Of a DNA stretch of 64,000 nt, positions 21,242 through 32,312 are shown in pieces (the stretch's first letter is position 1; every line of letters begins with the position of its first letter). The notes beneath the pieces were generated by a model. That model worked only from the letters and a program-made list of their open reading frames with translations. It was not told where the DNA came from and made no database searches. The position numbers and the translations under genes were made by a program. The DNA comes from Luteitalea pratensis (GTDB taxonomy: Bacteria; Acidobacteriota; Vicinamibacteria; Vicinamibacterales; Vicinamibacteraceae), in assembly GCF_001618865.1 (NCBI RefSeq), contig NZ_CP015136.1, forward strand, positions 2,515,001 through 2,579,000. Direction: 5' to 3'.

Positions 21242-21466
21242 CGTCGAGTCGCTGCCGGTAAAGCCATGCGCACCGATTTTAACTCGGCCGCAGCGGGGCG
21301 GACTTGAGGGAGGGCCTTCCGCACACGACCACAAACAAGATGGGGCGCTAAGGCAATTGCGGAACAGGTCCTAGTCGGTTTGCGGGCTGCGCCAATGCTC
21401 GCCCGAGCGCCATGCTACGCGCTTCACGGTTGTGTGAGTGGCCAGGCGGCCGCCGAGGCGGAACGA

Positions 21467-24424
21467 ATGCGATATCTGTGTGTCCTGTCGATAGTGATGA
21501 TTGGCCTGCTGACGACGACGTCAGCGCATGGACAGGCGACGGCGACGTTGCGAGGCCGCGTCCGGGATGCGCAGGCGGCGCCGGTCGCTGCCGCGACCGT
21601 CACCGTGACGAGTGCGGACACCGGATTCACCCGCGCCGTGCCGACGTCGGGCGACGGCAGTTTCCTGCTGGCAAACCTGCCACCGGCGACGCTCGACCTC
21701 ACCATCGCGGCACAGGGCTTTGCCACCGCGACCCGCCGCGGGCTGTTGCTCGAAGTCGGGCAGACGCTGGTCGTGGACGTCGATCTGGCCGTGGCGGCCG
21801 TGCGTGAGACGCTCGTGGTCTCTGCGGCAACCGCCGCCGTGGATACCTCGCGTTCGGTGGTCGACGCCGTCATTCCCTCCACGGCCATCGAGGTCCTGCC
21901 GCTCAATGGCCGCAACTTCCTCGAACTGGCGCTCCTGGTCCCGGGCAATACGCCGGCACCCAACTTCGACCCCACCAAGTCGAACTCGGTCGTCATCTCC
22001 TCGGCAGGCCAGCTCGGTCGCGGCGGCAACATCACCATCGACGGCGCCGACAACAACGACGATGTCGTTGGTGGACCGCTGCAGAACGTCACCCAGGAGT
22101 CGGTGCAGGAGTTCCAGATCGCGACGCAGCGGTTCACGGCCGAATCGGGACGGTCGGCCTCGTCGGTCATCAACGTGGTGACCCGATCGGGCACCGACCA
22201 GCTGCGCGGGTCGTTCTCGTTCTTCGCGCGCGACAGCGCGTGGCAGGGGCTGCCGGCGACCTACGATCGATCGAGCGGCGACTCATTCCCCTTCGATCGC
22301 CAGCAACTGGCTGGCGCCGTCGGCGGCCCGCTGGTGTCAGGCAAGGCGTTCTGGTTCGCGGCCGCCGAGTACCGGAACCAGGACGGCGCCGTGCTGGTGG
22401 GCGAACGTGACGTGGCAGCCCGCGCCATCCGCAGGTCCTTTGCCGCCGCGCCGCTCGACGACACGCTTGGTTCGGGGCGCGTGGACTGGCGTCGCAACAG
22501 TGCCGACGCGCTGAGCTTGCGATACGCCGGCGAGAGGGCCGAGGACACGGGCGCCAGCAGTCTCGATCGCGCGATCGGGTCGGCGTCGTATCGCCAGCGC
22601 AGCCGCAACAGCTACCAGTCGGTGGTCGGTACATGGACGCGGGTGGTGAGCCCGACGCTCATCAACGCCGCCACGGCCTCGTTCAGCACGTTCGACAACG
22701 CCATCGTGCCGATCGCGCCGGGCCCGCAGCACACCTTCCCGAGCATGCTCGACGGGTCGTCCTTCCGCGTGCCGCAGGGCACTACGCAGAAGCGCTTCCA
22801 GCTGGCCGATACGCTCACACTGTCTCGCGGGGCTCACAGCCTGCGCCTCGGCGGTGAGTGGCAGCGCGTGAACGCCGCCTTCGACCTCGGCGTCTTCCAG
22901 GACGGCCGCCTCGAGTTCATCGAGGACTTCCCGAGCTACGACAGCAATGGTGATGGCCGCGTCGACGATGGCGACCTGCTGTTCGCGGTGACGCTCCGCA
23001 GTGGCAAGCCCGATCAGGCGCTGGTGATCCCGGACGCCGACAACGACTACGTCTCCTTCTTCGTACAGGACGACTGGCGCCTGCGGCCCGACCTGACGCT
23101 GAACGTGGGCCTGCGCTACGAGATGGACACCGACGTGAAGAACGTGAGTCGCGTCGACGAGATCAACCCGATCGTCCAGCCGTTCCTGCAGGGCACCCGC
23201 GGTCGCGACCTGGACAACTGGGGCCCGAGGATCGGCTTCAACTGGGCCCCCGGCGATGGCCGCACGAGCGTCCACGGCGGTTACGGCATCTACTATGACC
23301 GCATCACGCTGCAGATCCAGTCGCTCGAACGCGGCCTGGACGGCCGGGCCCTCCCGATCGAGGTGCGCGCCGGCAACGTGTTCTATCTCGACTCGATGAC
23401 TGGCCAGTTTCCGCCGTTCGCTCCGTCGACGGCCAACCCGTTCACCGGCTTCATCCTCCCGGGCGCTGGCGCCTCGGGCATCAACATCATTGACAACACG
23501 ATGCAGAACCCGAGCGTGCAGCAGTTCAACCTCGGGTTCCAGCGCGAGCTGCCGTGGAACACCGTGTTGCGCGTGGACGGGGTGCACGACCTCGGCACGC
23601 ATTTCATCATCGGCCGCCCGATCGGTGCGGTGTACAACCCCGTGGTCGGCGGCCCCGATCAGGTGGTCAACCTCGAGTCGAGCGTCAACACCCACTACGA
23701 CGCGTTGCTGGTCAGCGCGGAGCGGCGCAGCACCAGCTTCGGGTTCCGCGCGGCCTATACGTTCGCCAAGGCGTTCAACTACGCCAACGACGACCAGATT
23801 CCGTTCGGCAGCGGGCCCATCGATCCGGACAACCTGCGCCTCGAGTACGGGCCGACGCCCAACGACCAGCGGCATCGCTTCACGCTCGCGGCCTGGATGG
23901 ACGCCCCGGCCGGCCTGCGGGTGGCGCCGATCATGACCTTCGCGTCCGGCGTGCCGATGGACATCCTGATGCCCGACGGGCTGACCCGCGTGCCAGCGTT
24001 TCAGCGCAACGCCGGCGGCCGGATCTTCGAAACCGGCGCCGACCTGAATCGCGCGCTCGTCGATCTCAACGCCTCGGGCGGGATCAACGGGCAGCCACTG
24101 CCGTACGTCCGGGACGACGTCCGGTTCGGTGACGGCTTCTCGTCGTTCGACCTGCGCATCTCACGGCCGTTCACCTTCGCGGGGCACGTGCGCATCGAGC
24201 CGATCGTCGAGGTCTTCAATCTCTTCAACGTGACCAACATCCTCGGCGTGAGCGTGAAGAATTACTCCGGGTACGCCAACGTGCTCGTGCGTGACAGTGC
24301 CGACCCTGCCGATCCGGGGTTCATGCAATCGTCGAGCTTCGGCGAGGCAGTGAGCACTGCAGGCGGCGTGTTCGGTTCCGGAGGCCCGCGCGCGTTCCAG
24401 TTCGCCGTACGGGCCACGTTCTGA
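21467..24424 (+). CDS. TonB-dependent receptor with carboxypeptidase-regulatory-like domain
   Basis: This is a 985-residue outer-membrane protein. It has a signal peptide to about residue 24 (SAHGQA), a CarboxypepD_reg-like beta-sandwich (ATLRGRVRDAQAAPVAAATVTV to ~110), a plug with IEVLPLNGRNFLELALL and the GADNNDDVVGGPLQNVTQESVQEF block, and a long barrel ending in the terminal Phe of AVRATF. This Oar/Acidobacteriota type imports large ligands, often carbohydrate or peptide. The APC permease gene starts 1 bp after its stop, so they share a transcript. Confidence 0.92.
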   Translation: MRYLCVLSIVMIGLLTTTSAHGQATATLRGRVRDAQAAPVAAATVTVTSADTGFTRAVPTSGDGSFLLANLPPATLDLTIAAQGFATATRRGLLLEVGQTLVVDVDLAVAAVRETLVVSAATAAVDTSRSVVDAVIPSTAIEVLPLNGRNFLELALLVPGNTPAPNFDPTKSNSVVISSAGQLGRGGNITIDGADNNDDVVGGPLQNVTQESVQEFQIATQRFTAESGRSASSVINVVTRSGTDQLRGSFSFFARDSAWQGLPATYDRSSGDSFPFDRQQLAGAVGGPLVSGKAFWFAAAEYRNQDGAVLVGERDVAARAIRRSFAAAPLDDTLGSGRVDWRRNSADALSLRYAGERAEDTGASSLDRAIGSASYRQRSRNSYQSVVGTWTRVVSPTLINAATASFSTFDNAIVPIAPGPQHTFPSMLDGSSFRVPQGTTQKRFQLADTLTLSRGAHSLRLGGEWQRVNAAFDLGVFQDGRLEFIEDFPSYDSNGDGRVDDGDLLFAVTLRSGKPDQALVIPDADNDYVSFFVQDDWRLRPDLTLNVGLRYEMDTDVKNVSRVDEINPIVQPFLQGTRGRDLDNWGPRIGFNWAPGDGRTSVHGGYGIYYDRITLQIQSLERGLDGRALPIEVRAGNVFYLDSMTGQFPPFAPSTANPFTGFILPGAGASGINIIDNTMQNPSVQQFNLGFQRELPWNTVLRVDGVHDLGTHFIIGRPIGAVYNPVVGGPDQVVNLESSVNTHYDALLVSAERRSTSFGFRAAYTFAKAFNYANDDQIPFGSGPIDPDNLRLEYGPTPNDQRHRFTLAAWMDAPAGLRVAPIMTFASGVPMDILMPDGLTRVPAFQRNAGGRIFETGADLNRALVDLNASGGINGQPLPYVRDDVRFGDGFSSFDLRISRPFTFAGHVRIEPIVEVFNLFNVTNILGVSVKNYSGYANVLVRDSADPADPGFMQSSSFGEAVSTAGGVFGSGGPRAFQFAVRATF

Positions 24425-24425
24425 G

Positions 24426-25751
24426 ATGGCGACGGCACGGTCCTCGCGGCCGCTGCAGTTGCCTTCGGCGGTGGCGCTGGTCGTCGGGCAAGTGATAGCC
24501 GTCGGCATCTTCCTGACGCCCGGCACGATCATCCGGACGATTGCCTCTCCACTGGGAGTGCTGCTCGTCTGGGCGGTCATGGGGACGATGGCCATCTGCG
24601 GTGCGCTCTGCTACGGGGCGTTGGCGGCGCGCTTCCCGCACGCCGGCGGCGGCTACGTCTACCTGCGGGAAGCGTACGGGCCGCGCGTGGCCTTCCTCTA
24701 CGGCTGGAAGTGCCTGCTGGTGATGGACCCGGGAATCACGGCCGCCCTGGCGACCGGCTTCGCCAGTTACGCGACCTACATCGTCCCTCTCGGCAACGTG
24801 GCCATGCGGGCCGTGGCCATCGGCGCCATCGCCGCCTTCGCTGCCGTGCACATCGCGGGCGTCAGGGTCGGCGTGCGCCTGCTGACGACGATCGCCGTCC
24901 TCAAGATCGTGCTGGTCGTGATCCTGACCCTCGGGGCGATCGTGAGTCCGGCGGCGGCGTGGAGCCATTTCGTGCCCTTCGTGTCACGGCATCCGCATGC
25001 GCCGCCCCTGCTTGGTGCCGTGGCTGGTGCCTTCGTCGCCGCGTTCTTCTCGTTCGGCGGCTGGTGGGAGGTCACCAAGATCGCCGGCGAGGTTCGGGAC
25101 CCATCCCGGACGTTGCCGCGTGCGCTGTGGGCCGGACTGGCCATCGTGACGCTGGCCTATACGGCGGCGACGCTGTCGTTCATCGCGGTCGTCCCGATCG
25201 GGCAAGTCGCCGAGGGACAGGCCTTCATCGCCCAGGTAGGCGAGGCGATTGTCGGTCCCGGCGGCGGGACGGCCGTGGCGGCGATCGTGATCGTGTGCGT
25301 GCTCGGCAGCCTGGGCGCGATGCAGATGATCGCGCCGCGGTTGTACGTGGCCATGGCGCAGGATGGCGTCTTCCCGGCTGCGGCAGCCGCCCTGCATCCG
25401 CGTTTCGGCACGCCGGCCCGGGCCATCGCGACACAGGCGGTGCTGGCCTCGGTGCTCGTGGCGATCGGCACCTTCGACACGATCGTCGCCTTCTTCGTCT
25501 TCATCACCGTCGTGTTCATCGCCGCAACGGTGGCGTCCGTGCTCGTGCTGCGGCGTCGTGAGTCGGACTTCCAGGTGCCGATGCATCCCTGGTCCGCCGT
25601 GGTGTTCCTTGCGCTCGTCGTGGTGCTGCTGCTCCTGATCGGCGCGAGCAATCCGATGCAGGCGCTGCTCGGTGTCGTGGTCGTCGCCGCGGCTGTTCCT
25701 GTCTACCGTATGATTCACGCGCGGCGTCTCACACCGCTGCTGGAGAGCTGA
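24426..25751 (+). CDS. APC-superfamily amino acid permease
   Basis: This is a 441-residue inner-membrane protein with about twelve hydrophobic segments. The N-terminus has the APC signature VGQVIAVGIFLTPGTI, TM3 carries RFPHAGGGYVYLREAYGP, and there is FFSFGGWWEVTKIAGEVRDPSRTLPRA at TM6-loop. It is typical of cation-coupled amino acid transporters and exchangers (LAT-like). It is tightly packed between the TonB receptor and the AhpD-like selenoprotein gene (5-bp gap), implying one operon. Confidence 0.92.
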   Translation: MATARSSRPLQLPSAVALVVGQVIAVGIFLTPGTIIRTIASPLGVLLVWAVMGTMAICGALCYGALAARFPHAGGGYVYLREAYGPRVAFLYGWKCLLVMDPGITAALATGFASYATYIVPLGNVAMRAVAIGAIAAFAAVHIAGVRVGVRLLTTIAVLKIVLVVILTLGAIVSPAAAWSHFVPFVSRHPHAPPLLGAVAGAFVAAFFSFGGWWEVTKIAGEVRDPSRTLPRALWAGLAIVTLAYTAATLSFIAVVPIGQVAEGQAFIAQVGEAIVGPGGGTAVAAIVIVCVLGSLGAMQMIAPRLYVAMAQDGVFPAAAAALHPRFGTPARAIATQAVLASVLVAIGTFDTIVAFFVFITVVFIAATVASVLVLRRRESDFQVPMHPWSAVVFLALVVVLLLLIGASNPMQALLGVVVVAAAVPVYRMIHARRLTPLLES

Positions 25752-25756
25752 TCGCC

Positions 25757-26323
25757 ATGACCTGGATCAAAGTGATTCCCTTCGACGAGGACGAGAACCT
25801 GCAGCAGGCACGTGCGGCGCAGCAGAAGCTCTACCCGATCGAATACGCGCAGCCGACCCACCCGCACCATGCCCAGACCGAGGGCATCGTCGCGTCGCAC
25901 TCGCTGATTCCCGACGCGATGCTGCACTCGTTCGCGGCGTTCGGGGCCCTGATGTCGCCGGATCTGCCGCTGACCCGTCGCCAGCACGAGATGATCACGA
26001 CGGTCGTGTCGGCCACCAACCGGTGCCAGTATTGACTGGAGTCGCACGCAGAGTTTCTGCGTAGGGTCACGCTGGACGAGGACTTCGTCGACGCGCTGAA
26101 GGCCGACTTCCGGGCCGTCGCACTTCCGGAGCAGGATCGCGTGATGCTCGAGTACGTCGAGCAGATCACCAAGGACGCCACGCGCATCTCGCCGGCGTTT
26201 CACGAGCGACTGCGCGCCGTCGGCTTCGACGATCGCGGCATCCTGCAGATCACGTTGATCGCGTCATGGTTCAATTACATCAATCGCGTCGCCGACGCGC
26301 TCGGCGTGGGCCGCGACGCGTAA
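25757..26323 (+). CDS. AhpD-like peroxidase-related protein, probable selenoprotein (CxxU)
   Basis: Codons 1-92 end NRCQY, then TGA (26033-26035), then the same frame continues with [10 protein letters not shown] to TAA 26323, giving 188 residues if TGA is read. The AhpD/CMD peroxidase-related family has N-x-C-x-Y-C-x-x-x-H here; the TGA sits exactly at the second Cys. Both halves are family-like and neither is disturbed. A perfect 6-bp stem with a 5-nt loop starts 10 nt after the TGA. Sec at redox sites of AhpD-like proteins is known in some bacteria. The product would be a thiol/selenol peroxidase-type redox protein. The alternative is a nonsense-mutated pseudogene. Confidence 0.8.
26046..26062 (+). 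promoter_or_regulatory. putative bacterial SECIS hairpin
   Basis: ACGCAG (26046-26051) pairs perfectly with CTGCGT (26057-26062) around loop AGTTT. Sixteen nucleotides separate the TGA from the loop, the second loop base is G, and the stem is 6 bp. This fits the described bacterial SECIS rules (loop 16-37 nt from UGA, G in the first two loop positions). Confidence 0.7.
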
Positions 26324-26456: not shown

Positions 26457-27761
26457 GTGAGCGCGCGCGACATGGCCCGAGCCAACGTCCGAGGATTGCG
26501 GTGGTGGATGATCGGCCTGGTGATGCTGGGGGCCATCATCAACTACCTGACCCGCAGCACGCTCGCCGTCGCGGCCCCGACGCTGCTCGAGGACCTGCGG
26601 ATCTCCACCCGCGAGTACTCCTGGATCGTGGGCACCTTCCAGGTCGCCATCATGTTCCAGCCGGTCTGCGGCTACGTCCTGGACGTGCTCGGCCTCAAGC
26701 GCGGCCTGGCGATCTTCGCCACGGCGTGGTCGCTCATCAGCATGGCGCATGGTCTGGCGCACAACTGGCAGATGTTCGCCGTGCTGCGCGGCTTGCTGGG
26801 CTTTGCGGAAGGATCGGCGAACCCCGCCGGCATGAAGGCCACCGCGGAGTGGTTCCCGGCCAGGGAGCGCGGCCTCGCCGGCGGCGTCTACAACATCGGC
26901 GCCTCGGTCGGATCGATGCTCGCGCCGCCGCTGGTGGTGTGGGCGATCCTGACCTACAACTGGCAGACCGCGTTTGTCATCACCGGCGTGCTGGGCCTGA
27001 TCTGGGTCGTCCTCTGGGTGTGGCTGTACAAGGCGCCCGACACCCATCCGTCGCTGTCCGCCGAGGAGCGCGCCTACATCGCTGCGGGCCAGGAGGCGCA
27101 CCTGCGCGACGACGGCCGGCGTCCGTCAATCGCACACATCGCGCGCCAGCGCAATTTCTGGGGCATCGCCCTGCCGCGCTTCCTGGCGGACCCGACGTGG
27201 GGCACGCTGACGTTCTGGGTGCCGCTCTACCTGAGCACGGTGCGGCACTTCGACCTGAAGCAGATTGCGCTATTCGCGTGGATGCCGTTCCTGGCCGCGG
27301 ACCTGGGGTGTCTCTTCGGCGGCGTCCTCGTGATGTGGCTCCAGAAGCGCGGCATCACGCTCATCAACGCGCGCCGCTGGGCCTTCACCCTCGGCGCCTG
27401 CCTGATGATGGGCATGGGGTTTGTCGGCGTCGTCGCAAGCCCGTATACGGCCATCGCGCTGTTAAGCCTGGGCGGCTTCGCGCACCAGACGTTGTCGGTG
27501 ACGGTCATCACGATGTCGTCCGACCTGTTCAAGCGCAGCGAAGTCGCGACTGTCGCCGGCATGGCCGGGACGTTCGGCAACGCGGGACTATTGATCTTCT
27601 CGCTGCTCATCGGCGGCCTGGTCGCCACCGTCGGCTACACGCCATTCTTCATCGGCCTGGCCGTGCTCGATCTCGCCGGCGCCGCGCTGCTGTGGATCCT
27701 GGTGAAGGATCCCGCGGCGGCGGAACTTCAGTCCGGTCCTGCCGCCCTCGCACGGCCCTGA
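26457..27761 (+). CDS. MFS transporter, ExuT/hexuronate (ACS) type
   Basis: This is a 434-residue, 12-TM transporter. The start of TM1 (MLGAIINYLTRSTLAVAAP) is characteristic of the anion:cation symporter family, followed by GFAEGSANPAGMKATAEWFPARERG, a hallmark of hexuronate/glucarate carriers. The central loop is short. The start is GTG 26457 or ATG 26472; neither has a strong ribosome binding site. A GH43 gene begins 41 bp after its stop, which suggests uptake of uronic acids or related sugars released from hemicellulose. Confidence 0.88.
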   Translation: MSARDMARANVRGLRWWMIGLVMLGAIINYLTRSTLAVAAPTLLEDLRISTREYSWIVGTFQVAIMFQPVCGYVLDVLGLKRGLAIFATAWSLISMAHGLAHNWQMFAVLRGLLGFAEGSANPAGMKATAEWFPARERGLAGGVYNIGASVGSMLAPPLVVWAILTYNWQTAFVITGVLGLIWVVLWVWLYKAPDTHPSLSAEERAYIAAGQEAHLRDDGRRPSIAHIARQRNFWGIALPRFLADPTWGTLTFWVPLYLSTVRHFDLKQIALFAWMPFLAADLGCLFGGVLVMWLQKRGITLINARRWAFTLGACLMMGMGFVGVVASPYTAIALLSLGGFAHQTLSVTVITMSSDLFKRSEVATVAGMAGTFGNAGLLIFSLLIGGLVATVGYTPFFIGLAVLDLAGAALLWILVKDPAAAELQSGPAALARP

Positions 27762-27802
27762 AGGCCGTCACGCGCGAGGCTGACTCCCGCCCGCACAACC
27801 AT

Positions 27803-29446
27803 ATGGGACAGAACGACGCCATCATCCGCAACCCAATCCTGACGGGTTTCAACCCCGACCCGTCGATCGTGCGCGTCGGCGAGGATTACTACGTCGCGAC
27901 CTCCACGTTCGAGTGGTATCCCGGTGTGCAGATCCACCACTCGCGCGATCTGGTGCACTGGCGACTCCTGACGCGGCCGCTCGAGCGCGCGAGCCAGTTG
28001 AACATGCTCGGCGATCCGGACTCCTGCGGCGTCTGGGCGCCGTGCCTGACGCATGCCGACGGCCTGTTCCATCTCGTGTACACCGACGTCAAGCGCTACG
28101 GTCGCACGACGGTCGGCGGTGCGTCGGGCGCCTCGCTCCGCGACTTCCACAACTATCTGGTGACCAGCCCGCGGATCGACGGCGAGTGGAGCGATCCGGT
28201 GCATCTGAACAGCAGCGGCTTCGACCCGTCGCTGTTCCACAACGACGACGGGCGGAAGTACGTGGTCAACATGCTTTGGGATCACCGGCCCGGAAAGAAT
28301 CGGTTTGCCGGCATCGTCTCGCAGGAGTACTCACCCGCGGAGCGCCGTCTCCTGGGCGAGCGCCGCCTGATCTTCGAGGGGACGCCCATCGGGTTCACCG
28401 AGGCGCCACACCTCTACAAGCGAGACGGCTACTACTACCTGCTGACCGCCGAGGGCGGCACCGGCTGGGGGCACGCGGTGACCATGGCCCGGTCGCGCGC
28501 GCTGACGGGGCCGTACGAGCTGCACCCCGACACCTACATCCTGACCGCGCGTCACCGGCCAGACGCCGGGCTGCAGCGCGCTGGCCACGCCGACCTCGTG
28601 GAGACGCCAGACGGCCGGACCTTCATCGTGTACCTGTGCGGCCGGCCCATCCCGAACCGGGGCCGCTGCACGCTCGGCCGCGAGACCGCGATCCAGCCGA
28701 TGACGTGGGGCACCGACGGCTGGCTGCGCAGCGCGGACGGCGATGGGCTGCCGGCGCTGTCCGTAGCGGCGCCTGGTCTCCCCGCGCACCCGTTCCCCGC
28801 TGCGCCGGTGCGCGAGGACTTCGACGGCCCGGATCTGCCGATCGACTTCCAGTGGCTGCGCTCGCCGTGGCCCGAGGAACTGTTCAGCCTCACCGCGCGC
28901 CAGGGACACCTGCGGCTGTACGGCCGCGAAACGCCGGGCAGCCTGTTCCGGCAGGCGCTGGTCGCGCGGCGACAGCAGGCACACTGCTTCAGCGCGTCCA
29001 CGGTGATGGATTGCGAGCCGGCGCACTTCCAGCAGATGGCGGGCCTCATCTGCTACTACGGCGGCACGAAGTTCCACTACCTCTACGTGTCACACGACGA
29101 CGCGCTCGGTCGGTGCCTGCGCGTGATGTCCGCGCTGCCGGACTCGCCGGCCGCCGACGCGTTTACGGTCCCCATCGCGATTCCGCCCGGGCCGATCGAA
29201 CTGCGGGTGGAGGTGGATTTCGAGCGCCTCCACTTCGCGTATCGCGTGGCGGGCGTCGAGTGGACCTGGCTCCCGCAGATGTTCGACGCCAGCATCCTCT
29301 CCGACGAGGCGACCTCGCCGGGGTTGCCGAACTTCACCGGCGCGTTCGTCGGGATGGCGTGCCACGATATGGCGGGCACGGCGCTTCCGGCGGACTTCGA
29401 CTGGTTCGAGTACCGGGAGCGCCAGTACCGCACGGATCCCGCGTAA
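27803..29446 (+). CDS. glycoside hydrolase family 43 beta-xylosidase-like enzyme
   Basis: This is a 547-residue protein without a signal peptide, so cytoplasmic. The five-bladed propeller has catalytic candidates Asp in NPDPSIVRVG, Asp in SGFDPSLFHNDDG and Glu in FTEAPHLYKRDGYYYL. A C-terminal concanavalin-like domain (from ~residue 330, FDGPDLPIDFQWLRSP) is as in GH43 subfamily 11 beta-xylosidases. Length fits that subfamily. It probably releases xylose or arabinose from short oligosaccharides imported by the upstream MFS carrier. Confidence 0.92.
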   Translation: MGQNDAIIRNPILTGFNPDPSIVRVGEDYYVATSTFEWYPGVQIHHSRDLVHWRLLTRPLERASQLNMLGDPDSCGVWAPCLTHADGLFHLVYTDVKRYGRTTVGGASGASLRDFHNYLVTSPRIDGEWSDPVHLNSSGFDPSLFHNDDGRKYVVNMLWDHRPGKNRFAGIVSQEYSPAERRLLGERRLIFEGTPIGFTEAPHLYKRDGYYYLLTAEGGTGWGHAVTMARSRALTGPYELHPDTYILTARHRPDAGLQRAGHADLVETPDGRTFIVYLCGRPIPNRGRCTLGRETAIQPMTWGTDGWLRSADGDGLPALSVAAPGLPAHPFPAAPVREDFDGPDLPIDFQWLRSPWPEELFSLTARQGHLRLYGRETPGSLFRQALVARRQQAHCFSASTVMDCEPAHFQQMAGLICYYGGTKFHYLYVSHDDALGRCLRVMSALPDSPAADAFTVPIAIPPGPIELRVEVDFERLHFAYRVAGVEWTWLPQMFDASILSDEATSPGLPNFTGAFVGMACHDMAGTALPADFDWFEYRERQYRTDPA

Positions 29447-29507
29447 CACAGGGCGCCAGGCCGGCCCGGTTCGCCTGGCAGCCCTGCGCAGCCCGTAGTC
29501 GGGTAGG

Positions 29508-30557
29508 ATGGCGGCAATGCTGCCGACGTGGCTGCCCCTGCTCCTCGTTGTCGCCGCCTGGACGCAGCCACCCCCGTCCGACACGACGCTGCACCGAAGC
29601 GAGATCCGTGTCCGCGATCCGTTCGTGCTTGCCGATCCGGAGACGAAGACCTACTACCTCTACAGCTCGACGACGCATGGCATGGACGCCAGCGAGCCGC
29701 GAAAGTCCGTGGTCGTCTACAGGAGCGCCGATCTCGAGCGCTGGTCGGCGCCGGTCACCGTTGCCGAGTTCCCTCCCGGTCACTGGGGTCGCGAAACCGT
29801 GTGGGCGCCGGAGGTGCATCGCTACAAGGGCCGCTACTACCTTTTCGTGACGCTCACGTCGACCGAGACCCTGCCGACCCCGCCGGGACGTCCGCGGAAC
29901 CTGAAGCGGGGCACGGAGATCCTGGTGGCCGATCGGCCCGAGGGTCCATTTGTGCCGCTGGGGAAAGGCTCGCAGACGCCGCCCGACTGGATGGCGCTCG
30001 ACGGCACGCTCTGGGTGGAGGACGGCGTGCCGTACATGGTGTTCTGCCACGAGTGGATCCAGATCACCGACGGCAGCGTGGACCTGGTGCGGATGAACGA
30101 CGACCTGTCAGCGCCCGTCAGCAAGCCCGTGACGCTCTTTCACGCATCCGAAGCGGACTGGGTCCGCTGCCGCGCCGATCTCGGCGAGCTGTTCGAGGGG
30201 AAGCGGTACCACGCGTTCATCACCGACGGCCCGTGGCTGCACCGGACGAGAACCGGGAGGCTGTTCATGCTCTGGTCGAGCTATGGTCCGACGAAGTACG
30301 CAACCGGCGTCGCTGTCTCGACGAGCGGGAGGATCACGGGACCGTGGGTGCAGCAGCAGGCGCCGCTATGGCTGGACGACGGCGGGCACCCGATGCTGTT
30401 CACGGCGTTCGACGGCCGGCTGGTGATGACGATTCACCAGCCGAACCGCCTCGTGGAGCGGGCGCGGTTCTTCGAGGTCGAGGACACCGGCGAGACGATC
30501 CGGATCGTCGGGGAGGTCACGAACGCGCACGCACCCGCGACGCCGCTCCCACGGTGA
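29508..30557 (+). CDS. exported glycoside hydrolase family 43 protein
   Basis: This is a 349-residue protein with a signal peptide (LPLLLVVAAWTQ). Single-domain GH43 propeller: RDPFVLADPETKTYYLY, WAPEVHRYKGRYYLFVT (probable acid Glu) and ALDGTLWVEDGVPYMVF. It would act in the periplasm or outside on arabinan, xylan or galactan-like chains, upstream of the cytoplasmic GH43. The ATG at 29508 follows GTAGG; ATG 29517 is also possible. Confidence 0.9.
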   Translation: MAAMLPTWLPLLLVVAAWTQPPPSDTTLHRSEIRVRDPFVLADPETKTYYLYSSTTHGMDASEPRKSVVVYRSADLERWSAPVTVAEFPPGHWGRETVWAPEVHRYKGRYYLFVTLTSTETLPTPPGRPRNLKRGTEILVADRPEGPFVPLGKGSQTPPDWMALDGTLWVEDGVPYMVFCHEWIQITDGSVDLVRMNDDLSAPVSKPVTLFHASEADWVRCRADLGELFEGKRYHAFITDGPWLHRTRTGRLFMLWSSYGPTKYATGVAVSTSGRITGPWVQQQAPLWLDDGGHPMLFTAFDGRLVMTIHQPNRLVERARFFEVEDTGETIRIVGEVTNAHAPATPLPR

Positions 30558-31079: not shown

Positions 31080-32085
31080 TGCGGCCGAAGTGGTAACGAG
31101 TATACACTGCCCGTCGTAGTTCATCCTGATGGAACTGCGATGCGTGTAGCCCCGCCCATTGTGTTGAGCCCTAACGATCGCCGCGTGCTCGAAGCGCGTG
31201 TGCGGGCCCGACGAGCACCGGCGCGTAGTGTCGAACGTGCGCGCATTCTCCTGCTGGCCGCCGATGGCTGGCTGAATCAGGACATTGCCGCGCATCTGCA
31301 GATGACGCCGGAGCGGGTCGCGCGCTGGCGCGCCCGCTTCTTGGGCGAGGGGCTGTCGGCGCTCGATCAGGACGCGCCGCGCAGCGGTCGGCCGCGGACG
31401 ATCACCGCCGCGCAAGAGCGCGCGGTGGTGCGGAAGACGACCCAAGAGCCGCCGCCGCAGGCCACACACTGGAGTACCCGCACGATGGCGGCCGCCACGG
31501 GGCTCAGCGAACGCAGCATTCGCCGCATCTGGCACCGGCACGGCCTGAAGCCGCATCTTACGCGCACGTTCAAGATCAGTCGCGATCCGGCGTTTGCCGA
31601 GAAGGTCGAGGCGATCGTGGGGCTGTATCTCGATCCGCCCGAGCACGCGCTCGTCCTGTGCGTGGATGAGAAGAGTCAGATCCAGGCGCTCGATCGCACG
31701 CAGCCGGGGCTGCCGTTGAAGCGTGGGCGCTGTGGCACGATGACACACGACTACAAGCGGCACGGCACGGCCACGTTGTTCGCCGCGCTCAACACGCTCG
31801 ACGGTCGGTGATCAGCATGTGCGACGACCGACACCGGCACCAGGAGTGGTTGAAGTTCCTGCGCGTGATCGACCACGTCACTCCTCCCGACAAGGATCTG
31901 GACCTCATCGTCGATAACGCCTCGACGCACAAGCACGCCAAGGTCCGTCGCTGGCTCGCGCGGCATCCGCGCTTCCACGTGTACTTCACGCCGACCAGCA
32001 GCTCGTGGCTCAACATGGTCGAGCGCTTCTTCCGCGACCTCACCCAGCGACGTCTGCGGCGTGGCGTGTTTCGCGAAGATCGTCA
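31078..32085. mobile_element. decayed IS630-type element, right end missing
   Basis: The left boundary is set by the break in the beta-lactamase gene near a TA dinucleotide (31071-31080), the target IS630 elements prefer. The sequence after it (gtgtagtgcggccgaag) is the presumed terminal repeat, but no inverted copy was found on the right. The transposase loses similarity near 32,080, just before the DUF433 gene, so the right end was deleted. Confidence 0.7.
31140..32085 (+). pseudogene. IS630-family transposase, frameshifted and C-terminally truncated
   Basis: The first part (to TGA at 31809) has an HTH domain and the first catalytic Asp in LVLCVDEKSQIQALDRTQ. The second part reads on in the -1 frame from GTG 31808 with Asp in LDLIVDNASTHKH and Glu in SSWLNMVERFF. 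The junction LDGR|VISMC loses no residue, as if one G was lost from a GGG run. Programmed frameshifting is less likely because there is no slippery heptamer. The usual ~40 C-terminal residues are replaced by unrelated sequence. Confidence 0.85.
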
Positions 32086-32087
32086 CA

Positions 32088-32312
32088 TCACGCAGCGACG
32101 ATTGGGTGCGCCAGACGACGGCTCGCGAATCGGAGGCAGGCCGACACGTCCTCGACCTCCAGATCGGGAAGCTCCTCGACCACCGCCGCAGGCGTCAAGC
32201 CTGACGCCAGCAAGTCGAGCACGTCCGTGACGCGGCTGCGAAGTCCCCGCACGCAGGGACGCCCGCCGCACTGGGCGGGATCGACGGCGATGCGATCGGC
32301 AAGCGTGGTCAT
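32088..32312 (-). CDS. DUF433 antitoxin-like protein, orphaned
   Basis: This is a 74-residue protein with the DUF433 core (CGGRPCVRGLRSRVTDVLDLLASGLTPAAVVEELPDL), a small winged-HTH-like domain in VapB-type antitoxins. It normally precedes a PIN-like DUF5615 toxin gene; here the downstream DNA is the broken IS630 element, so the toxin appears lost. An intact short frame with no obvious ribosome binding site. Confidence 0.85.
   Translation of the reverse strand: MTTLADRIAVDPAQCGGRPCVRGLRSRVTDVLDLLASGLTPAAVVEELPDLEVEDVSACLRFASRRLAHPIVAA

Follow-up and report, generated by a model that had tools for sequence, protein, structure and literature searches.

The DNA analysed here is a 64-kb stretch of the Luteitalea pratensis genome (the window), and the question it raises is whether a TGA at 26033-26035, which lies within an open frame on the forward strand, ends a gene or is read as selenocysteine (Sec). 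A plain list of open reading frames ends the gene at this codon. When the TGA is instead translated as U, the frame runs from an ATG at 25757 through the TGA and a further 95 residues to a TAA at 26321-26323, giving a protein of 188 residues (25757-26323, forward strand) with Sec at residue 93. From the sequence, the Sec machinery of the genome and conservation among relatives, we infer that the gene very probably encodes a CxxU AhpD-like selenoprotein, with Sec inserted at codon 93 with the aid of SelB and a downstream hairpin.

An AhpD-like gene with an in-frame TGA

The initial annotation had placed the TGA at the second Cys of an N-x-C-x-Y-C motif, with 95 codons to follow, and translation with the TGA as U bears this out. 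The residues around the codon read N-R-C-Q-Y-U-L-E-S-H, and the Sec occupies the second position of a CxxU motif (C90-Q-Y-U93). In a profile search the protein scores 106.5 bits against TIGR01926 (cut-off 81.8), which makes it a member of this AhpD/CMD family, and 37.4 bits against PF02627 (cut-off 23). It scores 57.6 bits against NF041238 (AhpD_rel_CFYUT; cut-off 175) and 23.5 bits against TIGR00777 (cut-off 191.95). NF041238 shares a related AhpD domain and is itself listed as a CxxU selenoprotein family (PMC13188914), of which the window protein is not a member. In the solved relatives 2oyo and 2pfx, a Cys stands at the position of U93.

We propose E78, C90, U93 and H97 as the catalytic set. 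As given in PMC3141380, the Glu, Cys, His or Tyr, Cys or Sec, and His residues of M. tuberculosis AhpD are spaced as they are in the window protein, and the proton-relay spacing of PA0269 equals that of E78, C90, Y92, U93 and H97. The M. tuberculosis enzyme differs from the window protein in having Cys where the latter has Sec, and its relay residue His132 corresponds to Tyr92 in the window protein and to Tyr50 in PA0269 (PMC3141380).

Selenoproteins of this kind are known in bacteria, as the initial annotation had stated and as the published COG2128/TIGR01926 family confirms. A 2026 review lists 'AhpD-like protein, TIGR01926, CxxU' among selenoprotein families (PMC13188914), and elsewhere the AhpD-like selenoprotein is listed under COG2128 (PMC9312934). 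Earlier counts include 27 Sargasso Sea sequences in 2005 (PMC1088965), two AhpD-like (COG2128) selenoproteins among the genomes surveyed in 2006 (PMC1794560) and 299 'AhpD-like 1' selenoproteins in the GOS survey of 2008 (PMC2398784). The 2006 count also gives four selenoproteins of three families for Acidobacteria (PMC1794560), so that, by this count, the use of Sec in the phylum is already in print. A literature search for papers joining acidobacteria, selenoprotein and alkylhydroperoxidase found none.

The Luteitalea gene is thus a well-supported further member of an already described AhpD-like selenoprotein family, and is not new in kind. Like the published COG2128/TIGR01926 CxxU family, its product passes the same NCBIfam cut-off and has Sec at the second CxxU position; a bSECIS-type hairpin likewise follows the TGA, the likeness, as far as the published descriptions go, being one of hairpin type. 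It differs from the published cases in coming from a single-contig genome with named relatives that are mostly titled Acidobacteria (among the best 80 of 236), and in lying behind genes for a permease and an outer-membrane protein.

A bSECIS-type hairpin and its conservation

The hairpin occupies 26046-26062 on the forward strand. The perfect 6-bp stem (ACGCAG/CTGCGT), the AGTTT loop, the 10-nt offset from the TGA, the 16 nt from TGA to loop and the G at loop position 2 were all found as first described. In the form given in PMC13188914, the bSECIS model calls for a loop of 3-9 nt, a stem of 4-16 bp, a spacing of 16-37 nt, a G in the first two loop positions and a minimum free energy of -7.5 kcal/mol or below. 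The 5-nt loop, 6-bp stem, loop G, 16-nt spacing (the shortest that the model allows) and folding energy of the 17-nt hairpin (-8.2 kcal/mol) all fall within these bounds.

Taken alone, the hairpin is not significant and counts as weak evidence, because a comparable one (at least 6 Watson-Crick pairs, a loop of 3-9 nt, a G in the first two loop positions and a spacing of 16-37 nt) follows 59 of the 1498 TGA triplets in the window, counted on both strands and in all frames. The stability of the 56-nt hairpin region is no better than that of shuffled sequences (z -0.07), and an Rfam scan of the window returned nothing at gathering scores. Across the 7.48-Mb genome, the hairpin pattern has one match without mismatch and one more with three mismatches; a reversed-pattern control also gives one match. 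It is the conservation of the TGA and the stem, and not the hairpin itself, that excludes chance.

To assess this conservation, we assembled 157 loci, the window's own included, from two collections in which some genomes are present twice. The first was drawn from 396 genomes of the phylum, 70 of which have a match to the AhpD-like protein at E 1e-20 or better, the limit of that search; the second comprises the best 80 of 236 related stretches. Cys forms that are more remote from the window protein fall outside a set bounded in this way. The search patterns for the second collection excluded the hairpin codons. Codon 93 was scored in 156 of the loci, because the remaining one (L175, genome G318) does not extend over that residue. 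Its match, in an open frame of 80 aa, is confined to residues 116-187; its genome has selA, and the copy is possibly truncated or decayed.

Codon 93 is TGA in 155 of the 156 loci, the window's own among them, and TGC in the remaining one (L043). The in-frame TGA falls at a position that is Cys in the solved homologues and is conserved in the orthologues. E78 and H97 are present in all 156 loci and C90 in 155. Record titles among the best 80 of 236 relatives are acidobacterial in 59 cases and gemmatimonad in 13; these are mostly metagenome bins, which may be mislabelled.

Close relatives, defined by an identity of at least 55% to the window protein, number 108 TGA loci with 71 distinct 34-mers. 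All 71 retain the loop G and the five inner pairs of the stem, and 65 of them retain the full set of six. In the six codons of the hairpin, the most frequent (modal) codon has a share of 0.935-1.00, compared with a mean of 0.58 and a maximum of 0.90 at 86 other conserved columns (Mann-Whitney p 2e-5). Such frozen synonymous sites point to selection on the RNA beyond that on the protein. Close relatives therefore keep both the TGA and the hairpin, and the alignment does not have the pattern of a point nonsense mutation. The close subfamily is about 57-88% identical to the window protein, and its titles include Acidobacteria, Gemmatimonadetes, Latescibacterota, Zixiibacteriota, KSB1 and Planctomycetota.

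The distant relatives (30-43% identity) comprise 47 loci with 46 distinct 34-mers. All 47 have the TGA, and the inner five pairs occur in the same register in only 24 of the 46 distinct sequences. Pairing in this group (219) is above that in slid registers (at most 138) and no higher than in column shuffles (mean 218.5), and for this reason covariation is not claimed.

Selenocysteine machinery and the single TGC copy

The L. pratensis genome (7,480,314 bases in one contig) holds all four of selA, selB, selC and selD. The profile scores are 492.9 bits for selA (TIGR00474, cut-off 267.9), 346.3 bits for selB (TIGR00475, cut-off 242.25), which also has the SelB winged-helix domains, and 330.5 bits for selD (TIGR00476, cut-off 125); the tRNA-Sec (selC) has the anticodon tca. 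The selD gene (L020:1348-2472; genome C1 near 7469558-7470478) carries an in-frame TGA of its own at its CAGU motif, which makes SelD, too, a probable selenoprotein.

Across the phylum sample, selA is over the cut-off in 62 of the 68 genomes with a TGA-bearing locus, compared with 187 of the 328 others (Fisher p 1e-8). The six TGA genomes without a strong selA differ in completeness, which is 72-75% in three of them, 91% in two that are split into 650-750 contigs, and 97% in G333. selB is over the cut-off in four of the six, and a tRNA-Sec match of at least 69 bits is present in five. In the exception, G266, neither gene is convincing: a selB-like fragment scores 145.8 bits, and the best tRNA-Sec match 47.8 bits.

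L043, the sole Cys form found, comes from a genome that is 99% complete (G014). Its motif reads TxxC, the first Cys being lost as well, and its stem keeps three of the six pairs and has three broken. In G014, selA gave no match and selB none over the cut-off. The best tRNA-Sec match is 47.1 bits, just above the gathering score of 47; a tRNA-Ser of the window's genome scores 49.5 bits with the same model. In quick trees, L043 lies among the Sec rows on a long branch, which suggests a change from Sec to Cys, its exact place in the tree being unsure.

Together, the Sec machinery in the genome and the retention of TGA and hairpin in close relatives support the original proposal that the TGA is read as Sec. 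Two other readings of the codon were weighed and rejected on conservation and the Sec machinery. The TGA could be taken for a recent nonsense mutation, as a TGA within a coding frame appears to be, and the gene for a pseudogene, a reading that becomes extremely improbable once it is set against a codon kept in all loci but one, intact proposed catalytic residues, frozen hairpin codons and a genome equipped for Sec. That the TGA is instead decoded by another suppressor or under a reassigned code, which would equally suit a frame open on both sides, has next to no likelihood given its place at the Cys position of solved relatives, the TGC in the one Cys copy, the tRNA-Sec with anticodon tca and the conserved hairpin.

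Gene neighbourhood and putative role

With the TGA read as Sec, SelB would deliver Sec-tRNA(Sec) at codon 93 (UGA), the hairpin would help Sec insertion from its position 10 nt downstream, and the ribosome would continue to the stop at codon 189. The product is predicted to have the fold of an AhpD-type helical enzyme, in which Sec93 would replace the second catalytic Cys and act with Cys90, Glu78 and His97. By analogy with AhpD, a peroxide or other oxidised substrate would most likely be reduced via a selenenyl-sulfide intermediate, and this substrate might conceivably be linked to the amino-acid permease encoded upstream.

The permease, of the APC family (24426-25751, forward strand; PF13520, 160.2 bits), ends 5 nt before the AhpD-like gene. 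A further 1 nt separates it from a gene for an outer-membrane beta-barrel protein (21380-24424, forward strand), which scores 289.7 bits against PF25183 and 70.5 bits against CarboxypepD_reg. This protein is TonB-receptor-like and scores 24.3 bits against TonB_dep_Rec, below the cut-off of 27. The gaps of 1 and 5 nt suggest that the three genes form one operon; the permease and the selenoprotein gene are probably in the same one, and co-expression with both upstream genes is plausible from the gaps and from partly shared synteny. A literature search for papers linking an AhpD-like selenoprotein to an upstream permease found none.

Of the close loci, 98 extend at least 700 nt upstream, and 37 of these have a permease homologue directly upstream on the same strand; 61 extend at least 2100 nt, and 10 of these have an outer-membrane protein homologue further upstream. 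Both counts include the window's own locus and near-duplicate records; among the 47 distant loci, the neighbours of two were covered. No neighbour common to all loci was found, the upstream and downstream clusters being varied, and the permease link is thus frequent but not general. In one cluster of 15 relatives (L091, L110, L081, L078, L122, L075 and others), a long upstream protein replaces the permease. The longest of these proteins has several CxxCH motifs by eye and may be a multihaem cytochrome.

Downstream of the selenoprotein gene, the region 26457-30557 includes an MFS transporter (26457-27761) and a GH43 glycosidase (29508-30557). It looks like a sugar-use cluster that is apparently unrelated to the selenoprotein. 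Further on, an open reading frame at 31140-32230 with helix-turn-helix domains is overlapped by a second one in another frame, a pair that may be a transposase in two frames.

The neighbourhood may bear on what the enzyme does. A selenoprotein whose role is not peroxide reduction but the processing or detoxification of a thiol or amino-acid-like compound taken up through the permease would account for the recurrent permease and, in fewer loci, for the outer-membrane protein beyond it. We regard this role as unlikely, since 61 of the 98 close loci have no permease there by this search and other genes occupy its position. Somewhat more doubtful still is a fuller version, in which the close subfamily would be a distinct Sec-dependent branch with a SECIS-dictated peptide, HAEFLR, forming with the permease and the outer-membrane partner a module that takes up and reduces one particular compound, and not a general peroxidase.

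If the gene is read as proposed, a gene model ending at 26035 loses half of the active enzyme, and with TGA-bearing relatives in 68 of the 396 sampled genomes of the phylum, such genes may often be misannotated in the same way. The almost invariant SECIS would be convenient for testing how an RNA structure constrains the protein sequence that it overlaps, and the family offers a natural comparison between Sec forms with the hairpin and one Cys copy without the full stem.
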